Part shown: piece after piece, positions 39,035-46,726 of the stretch
How positions within the stretch are numbered: position 1 is the stretch's first letter
Layout of the letters: each line of letters opens with the position of its first letter
Assembly: GCA_002689995.1 (NCBI GenBank)
Contig: NZIV01000031.1
Coordinates: 40,521-104,520, forward strand
From: Fidelibacterota bacterium
Lineage (GTDB): Bacteria; Fidelibacterota; Marinisomatia; SCGC-AAA003-L08; GCA-2689995
Length of the DNA stretch: 64,000 nucleotides
Direction: 5' to 3'
Position numbers and translations under genes: made by a program
Notes under the pieces: model-generated
Told to the model about the DNA's origin: nothing
Seen by the model: only the letters and a program-made list of their open reading frames with translations
The model's database searches: none

Positions 39035-41338
39035 ATGTCAGAAAAAAATAAAATTATCAATTCAATAGAAAATTATGAAATATCATATTGGGATATTTAT
39101 TTTATATTAAAAAGGCATCTAAAGTTAATATGTTTTTCAACAGTTCTTATTTTATTTTTATCTGTTATCTATACTTTGAGATTGGCACCCGTTTATAGTT
39201 CTACGGGGGTGATTCTAATTGAAGACCCTTCATCTAGGGTAAATATATTTGATATGGGAGTGGGTTCTGATAAGAATTTATTAGAAAATGAAATTGAAAT
39301 ATTAAATTCTCATACAACAGCTGAATCTGTAGTAAATAGATTACTAAATTCGAACCATAAAGATAATTTATATTTTTTTGGAACAAGAAAATATACTCCA
39401 GTTGGTCTAAGTAAATTATTAGATAGTTTTTTTAGTATTAATGGAGAGGAATATGAAAAAAATGAGTTCTTAATTAGTGATTCTTTAGTGAATCAATTAA
39501 CTTTAGATTTACAACAGAACATTTCTGTAAATAGTCAAAGGAATACAGATGTTTTAAAAATCTCGATTACAAGTATTGATCCTAATGAAGCTGCTTTACT
39601 AGTTAATACTCTAATAGATGAGTATAAAAACATAGATTTAAAATGGGCAAATGGGGAAATGTCTCATTTAAAGTCATTTTTATTGGAGCAGATTGAGAAA
39701 AAAGAAATTGAATTAACTGAATTTGAAAATTCATTGAAGCAATACCAAGAAAAAGAAAAAATCTTTGGTATGAGTGAGATGTCAAATTTATTATTAAATA
39801 ATTTAATTAATTCAGAATCTCAATTGTATAAATCAAAAGCAGAATACAATATATTACAGGAAAGAATCAATTATATAAAAAATTTACTTACTGATGAAGA
39901 AAAGTTACTATCTGAAAAAGTAATTAATACAATTAATGAAAGATTATTTACATTAAAAAATGAAATTGCTATAAAAGAAGCTGAGTTAGTTTCAACAATA
40001 GTCCAACAAGGTGAAAATCATAATATTGTACAAGTATTAACAGAAAAGCTAGATCGATTAAAATTAAATTTACAAAAAGAAACGAGAGTACTTATTTCGC
40101 AAGGAATATCTGTTGCGGATCCAATTAAGTATCGTCAATCACTAATGGACTCAGTAATTAGTATTACTGCTGTTTCAGCAGTTTATGAATCAAAAATTAA
40201 AGAATTTGATAATCTAGTTGAAAATTATGAACTACAATTGGGTGAATTACCAGAAAAAGTTTTAAAATATACAAGGCTAGAAAGAAATCTAAATATTCAC
40301 GCTGAAACATATTCATTAATGCGTCAAAAGCTAGAGGAAGCAAGAATAAATGAGGCCTCAAAGGTTGGAAAGGTTAGAATTATTGATAAGGCAAGACCTG
40401 ATTATAACAGGATAAAACCTAAAAATAAAGTAAATGTATTAATAGGCTTAATGCTAGGATTAGGGGTTGGAATAGGAATTTCTTTTTTACTTGAATATGC
40501 TGATAATACAATTAAATCAATTGATGAAATTGATAAAAGAGGTTTATCTATATTAGCATTAATACCTTCAATAGGAAAAAAAATAAATAATAAAAGAGAA
40601 CATTCTAAAAACTTATCAAAAAAAATAGGGAATATTGAGAAAATTCAACGTAGGTTGATTACTCATGAAGATCCGAAATCTCCAATATCAGAAGCATATA
40701 GAAGTTTAAGAACAAGTCTAATGTACTCAAAAGAATCGCTAAATCATGCTAAAATAATATTGGTCAGCTCCCCTGGTCCAGGTGAAGGTAAGACAACAAC
40801 AATCATGAATTTAGCAATAACATTTGCGAATTTAGGAAAAAAAACACTTCTAGTTGATTGTGATTTAAGGAAACCTGTCACCCATAAAATATTTAATGTA
40901 GAGAAAGATATTGGGATTACTAATTTTTTAGTAGGTAATATCAGTAATGTAGATAAGATAATTAACCCTACCGAGATTGAAAATTTATCAATTATTACAA
41001 GCGGTATAATACCACCCAATCCATCTGAAATATTAGCTTCAGAAAATATGGAAATATTAATAAAAAAAATAAAAATGGATTATGATGTAATTTTAATTGA
41101 TTCACCCCCATTATTAGCTGTGACAGATACTTTTATTTTATCCAAATTCGCTAGTCAATTTATTTTAGTAGTAAGAGCTGGAAAAACGGAAAAAGGAGGA
41201 TTAGATAGGTCTTTAGATCAGATGAATCAAGTTAATGTAAATCTATTTGGTATAGTAATGAATGATGTTGATGAATCGAATTCATACGGAAAAGGTTATT
41301 ATTATAATTATTACCAATATTATTATGGAGATAGTTAA
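39035..41338 (+). CDS. Wzc-like polysaccharide copolymerase/BY-kinase
   Basis: Wzz domain; SSPGPGEGKTTTIMNLAITFANLGKKTLLVDCDLRKP; VILIDSPP; Tyr-rich tail GKGYYYNYYQYYYGDS. Confidence 0.95.
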   Translation: MSEKNKIINSIENYEISYWDIYFILKRHLKLICFSTVLILFLSVIYTLRLAPVYSSTGVILIEDPSSRVNIFDMGVGSDKNLLENEIEILNSHTTAESVVNRLLNSNHKDNLYFFGTRKYTPVGLSKLLDSFFSINGEEYEKNEFLISDSLVNQLTLDLQQNISVNSQRNTDVLKISITSIDPNEAALLVNTLIDEYKNIDLKWANGEMSHLKSFLLEQIEKKEIELTEFENSLKQYQEKEKIFGMSEMSNLLLNNLINSESQLYKSKAEYNILQERINYIKNLLTDEEKLLSEKVINTINERLFTLKNEIAIKEAELVSTIVQQGENHNIVQVLTEKLDRLKLNLQKETRVLISQGISVADPIKYRQSLMDSVISITAVSAVYESKIKEFDNLVENYELQLGELPEKVLKYTRLERNLNIHAETYSLMRQKLEEARINEASKVGKVRIIDKARPDYNRIKPKNKVNVLIGLMLGLGVGIGISFLLEYADNTIKSIDEIDKRGLSILALIPSIGKKINNKREHSKNLSKKIGNIEKIQRRLITHEDPKSPISEAYRSLRTSLMYSKESLNHAKIILVSSPGPGEGKTTTIMNLAITFANLGKKTLLVDCDLRKPVTHKIFNVEKDIGITNFLVGNISNVDKIINPTEIENLSIITSGIIPPNPSEILASENMEILIKKIKMDYDVILIDSPPLLAVTDTFILSKFASQFILVVRAGKTEKGGLDRSLDQMNQVNVNLFGIVMNDVDESNSYGKGYYYNYYQYYYGDS

Positions 41339-41395: not shown

Positions 41396-42091
41396 ATGAA
41401 TGTATTATGTGTAATTCCTGCAAGGGCTGGAAGTAAAGGGGTTAAAAATAAAAATATTAGAGATTTTAAAGGAAAACCTCTAATCGCTCATACTATTGAA
41501 TACGCACAAAAATGCGATTTATTAACTAAGATTATTGTTTCTACTGATTCAGTAAAATATGCCGAAATTTCTAAAGAATATGGTGCTGATGTACCATTTA
41601 TTAGGCCTGAAAAATTTGCTAAAGATTCATCTCAAGATATTGATTTCATTTACCATGCATTATTTGAATGTGAAAAATTATATAAATTACAATTTAAATA
41701 TGTAGTCCTATTAAGGCCAACTTCACCAGTAAGACTATCAAATTTAATAGAAAAAGGACTGGCTCTTATCGACTCTGATCCTAATTCAACATCATTAAAG
41801 GCTGTTACAGAATCAACCGAACACCCATATAGACATTGGGAGCTGTATGATAATTCATATATCGCAGGTTATGAAAAAACAATACATGAGCCATATAATC
41901 TCCCACGTCAAGAACTTCCTAAGTTATATTATTCTGCAGGAGATATTGAGATTATTCGTAGAGAAACTATTATAAATGGATCAGTCTCAGGCGAAAAAAT
42001 TATACCATTTATTTTAAATAAAAAAGATGTTATTGATATAGACACGAATGAAGACTTTAATAACGCACTTGAAAAATATGACTATAAATAA
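41396..42091 (+). CDS. Acylneuraminate (nonulosonate) cytidylyltransferase, NeuA-like
   Basis: VIPARAGSKGVKNKNIRDFKGKPLIAHTIEYA; LLRPTSPVR. Confidence 0.93.
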   Translation: MNVLCVIPARAGSKGVKNKNIRDFKGKPLIAHTIEYAQKCDLLTKIIVSTDSVKYAEISKEYGADVPFIRPEKFAKDSSQDIDFIYHALFECEKLYKLQFKYVVLLRPTSPVRLSNLIEKGLALIDSDPNSTSLKAVTESTEHPYRHWELYDNSYIAGYEKTIHEPYNLPRQELPKLYYSAGDIEIIRRETIINGSVSGEKIIPFILNKKDVIDIDTNEDFNNALEKYDYK

Positions 42092-42129
42092 TAGTAAAAT
42101 AAAATATATGAAAAGGAATATTCTAAAAG

Positions 42130-43020
42130 ATGACAGAATATATTAATTATAAAAAAGAAAAAAATTATTTTAATAATATTTTTAAGAATTCAAATGATAA
42201 GAGTTATAATATTGCAGAAATAGGTATAAATCATAATGGTGATTTAGAACTTGCTAAAGAATTAATCAAAATATCATATAATATTGGATTTGATTGTGTT
42301 AAATTTCAGAAAAGAGTACCAGAACTATGTGTACCTCAGGATAAAAGAAATGAGATAAGAATCACTCCATGGGGTGAAATGACATATTTTCAGTACAAAA
42401 AGAAGATAGAATTTTCTAAGAGTGATTATGATGAAATTGATATTTATTGTAAAGAATTAGGCGTTGATTGGTCTGCCTCTGCCTGGGATATTGAATCTTT
42501 GAAATTTTTAAACCAATATGATATACCTTTTATAAAAGTTCCATCAGATAAATGTACAGATATTAATTTTATCAAAGCACTTAAAGAAGTTAAAATTCCT
42601 TTAATCATTTCTACTGGCGGTACAGATTTTAATCAAATTGAAAAAATATTTGATATCTTAGATGATAATAAGATTATATTGTTACAGTGCACCAGCATAT
42701 ACCCATGTCCTACTGAAAAAATAAATCTTAAAGTAATAAATGCTTTAAAAGATAAATATAAATTGCCTGTAGGTTTTTCATCACATCATACATCGCCATT
42801 AATTCCTGCAATGTCAGTTGCATATGGTGCAAAAGTAACAGAGGTTCACGTTACTTTAGATAGAGCTATGTGGGGTACAGATCAAGCAATGTCACTAGAA
42901 CCAAGAGGTATGCAGGTTATGATTTCAGCAATTAAAAACTTTGAGTTGGCATTGGGTGTAGATTCTAAGGAAATCTTAGAAGACGAAAAAAGTACTCTGA
43001 AAAGAACCGTAGGTAGATAA
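42130..43020 (+). CDS. N-acetylneuraminate/nonulosonate synthase, NeuB-like, without C-terminal SAF domain
   Basis: NIAEIGINHNGDLELAKELI; CTSIYPCPTEKINL; VGFSSHHTSPLIPAMSVAYGAKVTEVHVTLDRAMWGTDQAMSLEP. Confidence 0.93.
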   Translation: MTEYINYKKEKNYFNNIFKNSNDKSYNIAEIGINHNGDLELAKELIKISYNIGFDCVKFQKRVPELCVPQDKRNEIRITPWGEMTYFQYKKKIEFSKSDYDEIDIYCKELGVDWSASAWDIESLKFLNQYDIPFIKVPSDKCTDINFIKALKEVKIPLIISTGGTDFNQIEKIFDILDDNKIILLQCTSIYPCPTEKINLKVINALKDKYKLPVGFSSHHTSPLIPAMSVAYGAKVTEVHVTLDRAMWGTDQAMSLEPRGMQVMISAIKNFELALGVDSKEILEDEKSTLKRTVGR

Positions 43021-43033
43021 AAAAGTAATATTT

Positions 43034-44089
43034 ATGAAAAAAATTAATATAGCTATAATAGGTTATGGATTTATGGGCAAGGTGTATAATTATGCATCAA
43101 AAGTTTTAAATGATTATTATCCAGACTTACCACCAATAGAAGTTTCTAGTATATTGATTTCTCCAAGAAAATCAGATGATGAAATAAAAATTTTAAATGA
43201 TAGGTATGGTTTTAAGCTTATCACGAAAAATTATTCTGATCTTTTAAATGATTCATCTATTGATGCATTTTATATAGCTACTCCTAACAATTTTCACTAT
43301 AATCAAGTTGAACTTGCTCTAAAATATAATAAGCATGTACTTTGTGAAAAGCCTATGGCACTTTCAATAGATGAAACAAAAAAAATGTTAAAAATATCTA
43401 AAGATAAAAGAAAACTAATTACTAATATGGTTTTTGAATATAGATATATTCCTGCAATAACATATATTAAAAATCTTCTTAGTTCAGGAGAATTAGGCGA
43501 TATAATTCAATTTAGAATTATGTACTTACATGGAAGTTATATTGATAAAAGACCTATTACATGGAGATTAAAGCCTGGAACAGGTGGTGCCTTAATTGAT
43601 TTGGGGCCGCATGTATTAGATTTGATTCATTATTTACTCGGAGATTTTAAAATAAATTCCTTTAAGAAAAAAACTAAAATTCTTAATAGAGAAGTTGATG
43701 ATATAGCTTGGATATTATGTGAAACCAAAAATAATGCAGATGGCTACATAGAGGTTTCAAGACTTTCAACAGGTAGTGTTGACGACTTAAGATTAGAAAT
43801 ACATGGAACTAAAGGAGCTATTAAATGGAATTTAGAAGATTTAAATAATTACTATTATTATTCAAAAAAATCTAAAAATAATGGTTATACATATGTTCCA
43901 TGCTATACAAATATTGAGGATAATTCAGACTTCCCACCTCCTAAAGTTACTAGTGGATGGCTTTCTGCTCATGTGCACTGCTTATATCACTTTGTTAAGG
44001 AAATTTCAGATACTGACTATCAAAATGATAATATAGCAAAGTTTGAAGATGGACATTATGTTCAACTATTATTAGAAAACCTAAAATAG
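43034..44089 (+). CDS. Gfo/Idh/MocA-family oxidoreductase
   Basis: IAIIGYGFMGKVYNYAS; ATPNNFHYNQVELALKYNKHVLCEKPMALSIDE. Confidence 0.9.
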   Translation: MKKINIAIIGYGFMGKVYNYASKVLNDYYPDLPPIEVSSILISPRKSDDEIKILNDRYGFKLITKNYSDLLNDSSIDAFYIATPNNFHYNQVELALKYNKHVLCEKPMALSIDETKKMLKISKDKRKLITNMVFEYRYIPAITYIKNLLSSGELGDIIQFRIMYLHGSYIDKRPITWRLKPGTGGALIDLGPHVLDLIHYLLGDFKINSFKKKTKILNREVDDIAWILCETKNNADGYIEVSRLSTGSVDDLRLEIHGTKGAIKWNLEDLNNYYYYSKKSKNNGYTYVPCYTNIEDNSDFPPPKVTSGWLSAHVHCLYHFVKEISDTDYQNDNIAKFEDGHYVQLLLENLK

Positions 44090-44093
44090 TCTT

Positions 44094-45218
44094 ATGGAAA
44101 AAATACAAGTAAAAGCATTATTAATTACACCTAAAAAAAATATTGATTTAAAAGAAACAACTATTCCAGTTAAAAGGAAGTCAGATGTATCTGTTAAGTG
44201 GGCTGTTTCATCTGTTTGTAATTCAGAGAGAAGAAGATATAATTTAACAAAATCAGCTAGTGACCTTAATGCATTTATAGGTGGTCATGAAGCTATTGGA
44301 AACATTGTAGGTGAGGACTATCCTAAAAAGACATACGCTCTTTTACCTCATTCAAATTGCTTAACAAGAGGCGATAAAGATTTATGTATAAGCTGTGAAA
44401 ATAGAACAGAAAATTTATGTGACAGAATGAGACATGCAGGTTTAGATAGTGGTGAACCCAGTGGTTTTACTGATTTTATGAGTGTTAGTAGAAGTCAATT
44501 ATTTGATATTTCAGGCATAAGATTAGATTTAGCATCTTTTTTAGAGCCACTTTCATGTGTAATAAGGTCGTGGCGAATTTCTAAAATAAATATTAAAGAA
44601 AAAGATATTAAAATATGTATTGTAGGGGGAGGCCCTATCGGTTGTTTACATGCTTTTTATCTTAATAAATTAAATGAGAAAATAAAAATTACTATAGTAG
44701 AATCTTTAGAGAAAAGAGTCAACGTCCTAAATAAAGTTTTTAAGGATTTTGATAATATTAAAATTGAAAATAATAGTATTTCAGATAGATTTGATGTCAG
44801 TGTAATGGCCGCATCTTCATCCTCTGCATTTGATGATTCAATTAAATATCTTAAACCAAAAGGAAAATGTATTTTATTTTCGGGATTCAATCAGACAACT
44901 TATGAAGGAGATAATTATTTACCTGAAGTTATACATAGAAATGAATTTAGATATTTTTCTAATAATAAAATTCTAATTGGAAGTAGTGGATATACTGAAA
45001 AAGATTTATTATTATCAAAAAGTACCTTGTTTGATTTTGAAAATTGTATGAATATTGTTACAGGTAGAGTTTATGGATTAGATTCTAATGTAATCATTAG
45101 AAACGATGGTATAATTCAAGAGTATGACGAGCCAATATTAGTGAAAGATATTAAAGGAGATTTTCGTGAAAATCATATAAAAATTCAATATTATAATAAT
45201 TTATATAAAAGTCCATAA
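44094..45218 (+). CDS. Medium-chain (zinc) alcohol/sugar dehydrogenase-like protein
   Basis: GGHEAIGNIVG; GDKDLCISCENRTENLC structural zinc-like cysteines; IVGGGPIGCLHAFYL Rossmann. Confidence 0.8.
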   Translation: MEKIQVKALLITPKKNIDLKETTIPVKRKSDVSVKWAVSSVCNSERRRYNLTKSASDLNAFIGGHEAIGNIVGEDYPKKTYALLPHSNCLTRGDKDLCISCENRTENLCDRMRHAGLDSGEPSGFTDFMSVSRSQLFDISGIRLDLASFLEPLSCVIRSWRISKINIKEKDIKICIVGGGPIGCLHAFYLNKLNEKIKITIVESLEKRVNVLNKVFKDFDNIKIENNSISDRFDVSVMAASSSSAFDDSIKYLKPKGKCILFSGFNQTTYEGDNYLPEVIHRNEFRYFSNNKILIGSSGYTEKDLLLSKSTLFDFENCMNIVTGRVYGLDSNVIIRNDGIIQEYDEPILVKDIKGDFRENHIKIQYYNNLYKSP

Positions 45219-45358: not shown

Positions 45359-46726
45359 ATGAAAAATATAAATATTTCAAATTTATCTAAATGGAAGGAA
45401 TTCCGTCAATTAGAGGAAAAAGTTATTATTTCTTTTTTTGAAGAAATTCAAACCTCTCAAAATCAATTAGAAAAAGATATCATATCCATAGGATTTAGAT
45501 CTTTTATCGATGTTTGTAATTGTATATATATCCAAAATAGTTCCATTCAAAATTTTAACAATGAGTATTTTAATATAATAAAAATAAAAAATAAATTAAA
45601 CAAAATTAAATATAAATCAGTCATTGATTATGATTTAGAAAAAGAGAAAATATTTTCAGATTTCAGAATATTTAAATTGTTAAAACTATTTATAAAAATT
45701 AACATGAATAGACTTAAATACATATTTAAGCCTACTGCTTTTGTTTTTATTGAATCAATTAATTTAGAAAAACTAAAAATATATGATAAGTATGGACTTA
45801 TTCTACCCATATCAATTACAAATTTCTTGAATAAAAGTAATGAAAAAAATGATGCAGAATCTTTAATTGGATTATCAAATAGATTAGCCGATAGAATATT
45901 GAATAATATTAATTCAATTCAATTTGATAAAAAATATGTAGCTAAAATTTTATATGAGCATTTTCGTTCGATATATAATGATTATAAAAAAATAAAAATC
46001 AATACACTTCCTAAAAATTTAATAATTAATTGTGGCAACAAGACACCTTTAAGACTATTGTGTAGAGTTATGAAAATGAACAAAAAGAATGTAGTTTCAT
46101 TTGCTCACGGGGAGATTTTGCAAAATAAAGATTATCATAGATTATGGTTAGATAATATTATAAGCACTAATTATGTCGAGCAGTATTCTTTTTTAGCGGA
46201 TGATTTAAAAACAAAAATAAAAAAAACACCATTTATGAATTTATTTACAAGTAAAATTGAATCATTAAAAAATGACATTGAATTTCCTAAAAAGGGAAGA
46301 CTTCTTTTTGAAAATAAAAAAGTATTATTAATTGGAAATGCCACAAAACTACATTCATATTCAACCGTCACGTCATTTATTCCTTCTATTCAAGCTGAAA
46401 TCGAATTGACTATTTTAAATTTCATGAAAAATAAACATTCTGTAGTTAATTATAAAGCACATCCAGGAGGACACGTAAAAACTGAGTTGATTGAATTTTA
46501 TAAAAGTAAAAATTTTATTAATATAGAAAATGAAATATTTGAAAAAGTGATTCCACATTATGATATTATTATTTTTTATTATGCAAGAACATCAACAATT
46601 AATGCTGCTTTTAAAAGTAAAAAACATTTAATTTTTATTGACCTTGGAATTGAGAAGTATGAAGTAAATAGTTTTAATAAAATTAAAGATAGATGTCATA
46701 TTATTAAATATGAAGATATTTTATAG
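45359..46726 (+). CDS. Hypothetical protein, possibly surface-carbohydrate biosynthesis
   Basis: Long ORF within the locus; PTTIF-like motifs KNVVSFAHGEIL and NYKAHPGG suggest a capsule/GT-B-like enzyme. Confidence 0.5.
   Translation: MKNINISNLSKWKEFRQLEEKVIISFFEEIQTSQNQLEKDIISIGFRSFIDVCNCIYIQNSSIQNFNNEYFNIIKIKNKLNKIKYKSVIDYDLEKEKIFSDFRIFKLLKLFIKINMNRLKYIFKPTAFVFIESINLEKLKIYDKYGLILPISITNFLNKSNEKNDAESLIGLSNRLADRILNNINSIQFDKKYVAKILYEHFRSIYNDYKKIKINTLPKNLIINCGNKTPLRLLCRVMKMNKKNVVSFAHGEILQNKDYHRLWLDNIISTNYVEQYSFLADDLKTKIKKTPFMNLFTSKIESLKNDIEFPKKGRLLFENKKVLLIGNATKLHSYSTVTSFIPSIQAEIELTILNFMKNKHSVVNYKAHPGGHVKTELIEFYKSKNFINIENEIFEKVIPHYDIIIFYYARTSTINAAFKSKKHLIFIDLGIEKYEVNSFNKIKDRCHIIKYEDIL

Follow-up and report, generated by a model that had tools for sequence, protein, structure and literature searches.

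The window analysed here is a stretch of 64,000 nucleotides from contig NZIV01000031.1 of a Fidelibacterota bacterium (assembly GCA_002689995.1). At positions 41396–45218 it carries a cassette of four genes, which encode a NeuA-like cytidylyltransferase, a NeuB-like ulosonate synthase, a Gfo/Idh oxidoreductase and an MDR dehydrogenase (table 1). This cassette stands out by its remodelled NeuB and its pair of private oxidoreductases; that NeuB lacks the SAF domain is not what sets it apart. We conclude that the core of the cassette very probably synthesizes a CMP-ulosonate for a polysaccharide. Gfo/Idh and MDR may quite possibly act as a redox pair on the acceptor or the product of NeuB. At the same strength we read the whole as a CMP-ulosonate cassette whose redox pair would reshape a putative acceptor sugar or product. 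Somewhat more tentatively, we suggest that a SAF-less, active-site-remodelled NeuB and two private oxidoreductases supply the polysaccharide with an ulosonic acid that has not been described before.

What kind of enzyme is the NeuB of the window? It matches PF03102 at 2e-66 and leaves SAF (PF08666) unmatched. It falls below the cut-offs of both the N-acetylneuraminate synthase model (TIGR03569, 226.7 bits vs 399.65) and the pseudaminic acid synthase model (TIGR03586, PseI, 172.5 bits vs 340.25). The AlphaFold model, built on 45 sequences, has a mean pLDDT of 89.9 and shows a complete eight-stranded barrel with a helix at its end, so this NeuB is not a truncated pseudogene; the nearest folds are those of PseI (8h2c), NeuB (1xuu) and the Leptospira NeuB (6ncs). 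Pfam and the model thus bear out the statement of an earlier note on this DNA that the protein ends after the barrel. Is SAF perhaps supplied by a separate protein, for which that note advised a search? Five SAF matches exist in the whole genome, none of them on the window's contig. Since all five fall inside NeuB genes carried by contigs C30, C38, C39 and C41, no SAF is encoded nearby.

NeuA, the partner of NeuB, passes CTP_transf_3 (PF02348) at 8e-22, with 78.5 bits against a gathering score of 22.6. Against the PseF model it scores 152 bits, under the cut-off of 206, and its matches in the PDB are the NeuA structures 6ifd and 1eyr. The earlier assignment of a NeuB/NeuA-type ulosonate cassette is upheld.

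If NeuB lacks SAF, how unusual is it? We scanned 84,980 species genomes with a 13-member NeuB alignment and took the best 80 loci; the alignment was required, the window NeuB as a single query having given no matches in the genome contigs. These loci stem from Chloroflexota, Actinomycetota, Bacteroidota, Ignavibacteria and others, and SAF is missing from all 81 best-match NeuBs that they encode. The loss of SAF, previously taken for a remarkable trait, is therefore ordinary: it defines a large and widespread Kdn-type subfamily of NeuB. The window NeuB carries the subfamily signature Ser117/Trp119/Ser189 and the KFQKR...TPWG loop. A phylogeny, for which the earlier note had called, groups the window NeuB with the SAF-less relatives (support 0.919), beside marine viral and Neomarinimicrobiota SAF-less NeuBs, but the branch is long and the inner placement weak. 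Relatives are encoded by at least 548 viral stretches, and in the best 80 of these the NeuBs are mostly SAF-less. Viral contigs, marine ones included, very often carry a SAF-less NeuB 42–50% identical to that of the window, frequently two per contig (L167–L246 from IMG/VR, L051, L052). There is also a second, separate SAF-less type (L069–L072), about 34% identical to the window's, which in L070 and L071 adjoins homologues of the window's polysaccharide-export genes.

The usual companions of the subfamily suggest what it works on. A HAD protein of the KdsC/Kdn-9-phosphatase type lies within 4.5 kb of NeuB in 72 of the best 80 genome loci and NeuA in 65 of them; in several, NeuA and the HAD are apparently one reading frame. 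From these neighbours, and from the known Kdn pathway, it is most likely that the subfamily acts on aldose phosphates such as mannose-6-phosphate. The window has no adjoining phosphatase and so departs from this arrangement. Its genome encodes two such HADs elsewhere; the Kdn-9-phosphatase model, with a cut-off of 180 bits, scores them at 181 and 174. The window NeuB nevertheless belongs to the subfamily, because the HAD is a usual companion and not part of the protein.

How, then, does the window NeuB differ from its relatives? In an alignment to NmNeuB, whose active site served as reference, the catalytic residues are all retained, apart from positions that differ across the whole SAF-less subfamily; those kept are K58, Q60, K136, S139, S161, Y191, S217, H219, E238, H240 and D251 of the window NeuB. 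On the other hand, the window NeuB departs from the consensus at 13 of 76 near-invariant columns (each at least 93% conserved among 153 relatives), whereas the relatives depart at 0.94 on average and at 9 at most. Several substitutions adjoin the active site: A140D follows S139, M164G and S165T follow S161–G163, Y216F, G218S and E220H surround S217 and H219, and R239V lies between E238 and H240. The changed residues D140, G164, T165, F216, S218, H220 and V239 flank the phosphoenolpyruvate, metal and acceptor sites. Lying beside conserved active-site positions, these changes are the strongest sign in the sequence that the acceptor differs. As a degenerate DNA pattern the window motif EVHVTLDR...WG[T/S]DQ found no match in viral contigs. 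A protein-level search of all fetched loci gave one other EVHVTL NeuB (L150, 14296–15375), which has SAF and no adjoining MDR or Gfo/Idh.

The same departures admit other explanations. The long branch and the 13 changes might mean that NeuB has decayed, or has been recruited to another role, and that no ulosonate is made. We consider this very improbable, for the frame is intact, every compared catalytic residue is kept, the barrel is confident and complete, and an intact NeuA adjoins it. Could the altered pocket instead accommodate a shorter aldose, prepared by the oxidoreductases, so that the product is an ulosonic acid of another chain length, of seven or eight carbons for example? Several strictly conserved acceptor-side positions are altered, the fold family also contains the Kdo-8-phosphate and DAHP synthases, and the transketolase subunits, class III aminotransferase and SDRs beside some SAF-less relatives imply other acceptors. 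Yet the closest relatives are accompanied by a HAD of the Kdn-9-phosphatase type, not by an arabinose-5-phosphate isomerase; we regard this possibility as improbable.

What of the two oxidoreductases? Both look active, judging by their motifs. Gfo/Idh matches the N- and C-domains of Pfam and has an intact catalytic EKP at 105 and Asp189-x3-His193. Its nearest NCBIfam model is levoglucosan dehydrogenase (1e-52), far under the curated cut-off. The MDR matches ADH_N weakly (Pfam 1e-3, under the gathering score) and is nearest in NCBIfam to L-idonate 5-dehydrogenase (4e-14), again far under the curated cut-off. Its two nearest structures are L-idonate 5-dehydrogenase (6dkh) and an uncharacterised zinc-binding dehydrogenase. 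It keeps Cys42, His65-Glu66, the structural-zinc cysteines 89, 98, 101 and 109, and the GGGPIG nucleotide loop. As the earlier note had said, neither oxidoreductase is known to belong to the standard pathways for Neu5Ac, legionaminic acid or pseudaminic acid, and levoglucosan dehydrogenase and L-idonate 5-dehydrogenase are not known in ulosonate synthesis.

As far as sampled, the pair is private to its own genome. The 244 other genomes of the phylum contain no relative of Gfo/Idh at 1e-40 and none of the MDR at 1e-20. The MDR is absent from the best 80 genome loci and the best 80 viral loci; a search of viral contigs gave no match, and plasmids and phages gave distant ones of about 27% identity or less. 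For Gfo/Idh, some of the best 80 genome loci have a match, but to distant proteins only (22–34% identity). The two together occur in none of the 245 phylum genomes (apart from the window), the 80 genome loci or the 80 viral loci. The earlier note had counted the absence of the oxidoreductases from orthologous loci against its own proposal, and absent they are: neither was found with any relative, and the four-gene order is thus so far private to this genome.

Other redox enzymes do recur beside SAF-less NeuBs. An SDR is present at 32 of the best 80 genome loci and a Gfo/Idh unlike that of the window at 12, so that redox enzymes are recurrent partners of the subfamily. In loci of Chloroflexota, KSB1 and Poribacteria the different Gfo/Idh (12 of 80) and an SDR (25 of 80) lie upstream of NeuA–HAD–NeuB, and Gfo/Idh–SDR–NeuA–HAD–SAF-less NeuB forms a conserved module (L088, L090, L110, L111, L116, L120, L145), after which several Chloroflexota loci carry a second NeuA, a D-2-hydroxyacid dehydrogenase and another SDR. 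Seven loci of the Bacteroidota/Ignavibacteria type have another SDR and a class III aminotransferase, five of them with transketolase subunits as well. In Bacteroidota, Ignavibacteria and Methylomagnum (L113, L132, L135, L147, L151; L047) a SAF-less NeuB is surrounded by genes for a split transketolase, a class III aminotransferase and an SDR, in some cases also a HAD, which probably represent another acceptor sugar route.

How might the four proteins work together? NeuB, a divergent representative of the SAF-less subfamily with catalytic residues intact and an altered acceptor pocket, would condense phosphoenolpyruvate with an aldose. NeuA would then convert the product, with CTP, to a CMP-sugar for the surrounding surface polysaccharide. 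Gfo/Idh and MDR would most likely oxidise and then reduce one carbinol centre, or leave a keto group. Their target would be either the acceptor hexose or the ulosonate, and the result a Kdn-like acid with its configuration or oxidation state changed. A free ‘oxidised’ product is conceivable, and the oxidised 9-carbon sugar proposed in the earlier note is a guess. Phosphate, if it had to be removed, could be removed in trans by one of the two Kdn-9-phosphatase-like HADs of the genome.

Several points weigh against this scheme. NeuB together with this Gfo/Idh and MDR was found in no second genome, so that operon membership rests on one locus. The adjoining phosphatase that 72 of the 80 relatives possess is missing. 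The substrate cannot be read from the sequence, and the oxidoreductases could act in the synthesis of a different sugar in that polysaccharide. It is indeed possible, though we incline to doubt it, that NeuA and NeuB make CMP-Kdn, or a known nonulosonate close to it, and depend on a phosphatase in trans, while Gfo/Idh and MDR serve an unrelated sugar of that polysaccharide: the polysaccharide cluster has genes for other nucleotide sugars, the pair is missing from all NeuB relatives, and suitable HADs lie elsewhere in the genome. But the four genes are tightly packed, with gaps of 38, 13 and 4 bases, and the active site of NeuB departs from its subfamily as a changed acceptor would predict.

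The cassette lies on a contig of 138 kb in a 2.9 Mb genome of an uncultured marine bacterium of a Neomarinimicrobiota order. As the earlier note had described, its four genes are co-directional; all are intact and on the + strand. Their G+C content (0.279) matches that of the window (0.278). They are embedded in a surface-polysaccharide locus that starts at about 28.5 kb, continues to the window's end and contains nucleotide-sugar enzymes, a polysaccharide co-polymerase, glycosyltransferases, an MBOAT acyltransferase and a flippase-like protein (names other than MBOAT being assigned by eye), together with UDP-sugar dehydrogenases, epimerases, a DegT-type aminotransferase and a WlbA-like Gfo/Idh. 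The co-polymerase (39035–41338) precedes the cassette and a protein of 455 residues (from 45359) follows it. The latter has no match in Pfam, NCBIfam or PHROGs, and one distant relative among 245 phylum genomes (in G171), within another polysaccharide locus; an asparagine-synthase-like gene lies near both. It is a candidate ulosonate or other glycosyltransferase. No UDP-GlcNAc 2-epimerase (NeuC) was recognised by eye among the reading frames of the window. One is found on another contig, C30 (L011, 8069–12861), where a SAF-containing NeuB, the NeuC-like epimerase, NeuA and two tandem Gfo/Idh-like genes form another association of NeuB with oxidoreductases inside the same genome.

Table 1. Positions in the window of the cassette genes, of two altered NeuB sites and of the gene that follows.
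Feature	Position	Strand	Basis
NeuA-like CMP-ulosonate cytidylyltransferase, 231 residues, motif IPARAGSKGVKNKN	41396..42091	+	PF02348, PseF model, PDB NeuA matches
NeuB-like ulosonate synthase, 296 residues, without SAF	42130..43020	+	PF03102, full TIM barrel model
NeuB His219-His220 (metal-ligand His219 kept; His220 replaces Glu of 153/153 compared relatives)	42784..42789	+	alignment
NeuB Glu238-Val239-His240 (catalytic Glu and His kept; Val replaces Arg of 153/153 compared relatives)	42841..42849	+	alignment
Gfo/Idh/MocA oxidoreductase, 351 residues, EKP and D-x3-H motifs intact	43034..44089	+	Pfam, NCBIfam, motifs
Zinc-dependent MDR dehydrogenase, 374 residues, L-idonate/threonine dehydrogenase type, probably NAD-dependent	44094..45218	+	NCBIfam, structure matches, motifs
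Family-less protein of 455 residues directly 3' of the cassette	45359..46726	+	candidate ulosonate or other glycosyltransferase

What role might the other NeuBs of this order play? We surveyed 41 genomes, 30 from families f1–f4 (own genome included) and 11 from family f5. KdsA is present in all 11 f5 genomes and in none of the 30 others; in the window's own genome the Kdo-8-phosphate synthase model (TIGR01362) is unmatched anywhere. KdsD passes its cut-off in 10 of 11 f5 genomes and 1 of 30 f1–f4 genomes, and KdsB (E <1e-25) is found in 11 of 11 and 3 of 30. LpxC (39 of 41), KdtA (38 of 41) and a KdsC-type HAD (38 of 41) occur across the order. The gene order in f5 is KdsA–KdsC–KdsD. In f1–f4 at least twelve genomes have a contiguous NeuB–(NeuA)–HAD–KdtA, and NeuA–HAD–KdtA is contiguous in six, own genome among them; such adjacency was seen in L053, L055–L057 and L262–L270, and in the own genome in L009 (C41) and L261 (C26). 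The Kdn-9-phosphate phosphatase model (cut-off 180) is passed by HADs of G182 (185.0), G180 (187.4) and the own genome (181.2), whereas those of f5 prefer the KdsC model. Gene content in these draft genomes, whose cases share ancestry, suggests that the Kdo of lipid A has probably been replaced in f1–f4 by a NeuB-made nonulosonic acid, itself probably Kdn. The combined proposal, that lipid A Kdo is so replaced in most of the order and that the window cassette is related machinery making an undescribed ulosonic acid, we regard as rather unlikely to hold in full.

These results correct the view of the SAF-less NeuB as exceptional: it forms a large subfamily in bacteria and marine viruses, nearly always accompanied in bacteria by a Kdn-9-phosphatase-type enzyme. 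The window NeuB is an outlier of that subfamily with a redox pair of its own, and a promising lead towards a new acidic sugar. If true, the exchange of Kdo for a nonulosonic acid in the lipid A of a bacterial order would bear on how fixed the inner core of lipopolysaccharide is, and this side result may matter more than the cassette itself. The literature searched gave no precedent for a SAF-less NeuB, nor for Kdn or another nonulosonate replacing Kdo on lipid A, which is not proof of absence.

How does the cassette compare with known systems? The window NeuB has its barrel fold and catalytic residues in common with Neisseria meningitidis NeuB (1xuu) and Campylobacter PseI (8h2c); unlike them it has no SAF, and it scores below both family cut-offs. 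The Leptospira borgpetersenii NeuB (6ncs, 290 residues) has a solved chain of about barrel length, with a target-normalised TM-score of 0.85, but it is 27% identical and is placed in the tree outside the SAF-less clade of the window NeuB. Levoglucosan dehydrogenase is the nearest characterised family for Gfo/Idh, and L-idonate 5-dehydrogenase (6dkh) one of the two nearest structures for MDR, though both proteins score far under the respective cut-offs. In the Kdn pathway of Bacteroides thetaiotaomicron and Prymnesium parvum a Kdn-9-phosphate synthase uses mannose-6-phosphate and is followed by Kdn-9-phosphate phosphatase and CMP-Kdn synthetase (PMC6200933). The window cassette differs from that pathway in having no phosphatase, a remodelled NeuB pocket and two extra oxidoreductases. 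Like it, the cassette pairs a NeuB-type synthase with a CMP-transferase, and nearly all relatives of its NeuB have beside them a HAD of the KdsC/Kdn-9-phosphatase family.

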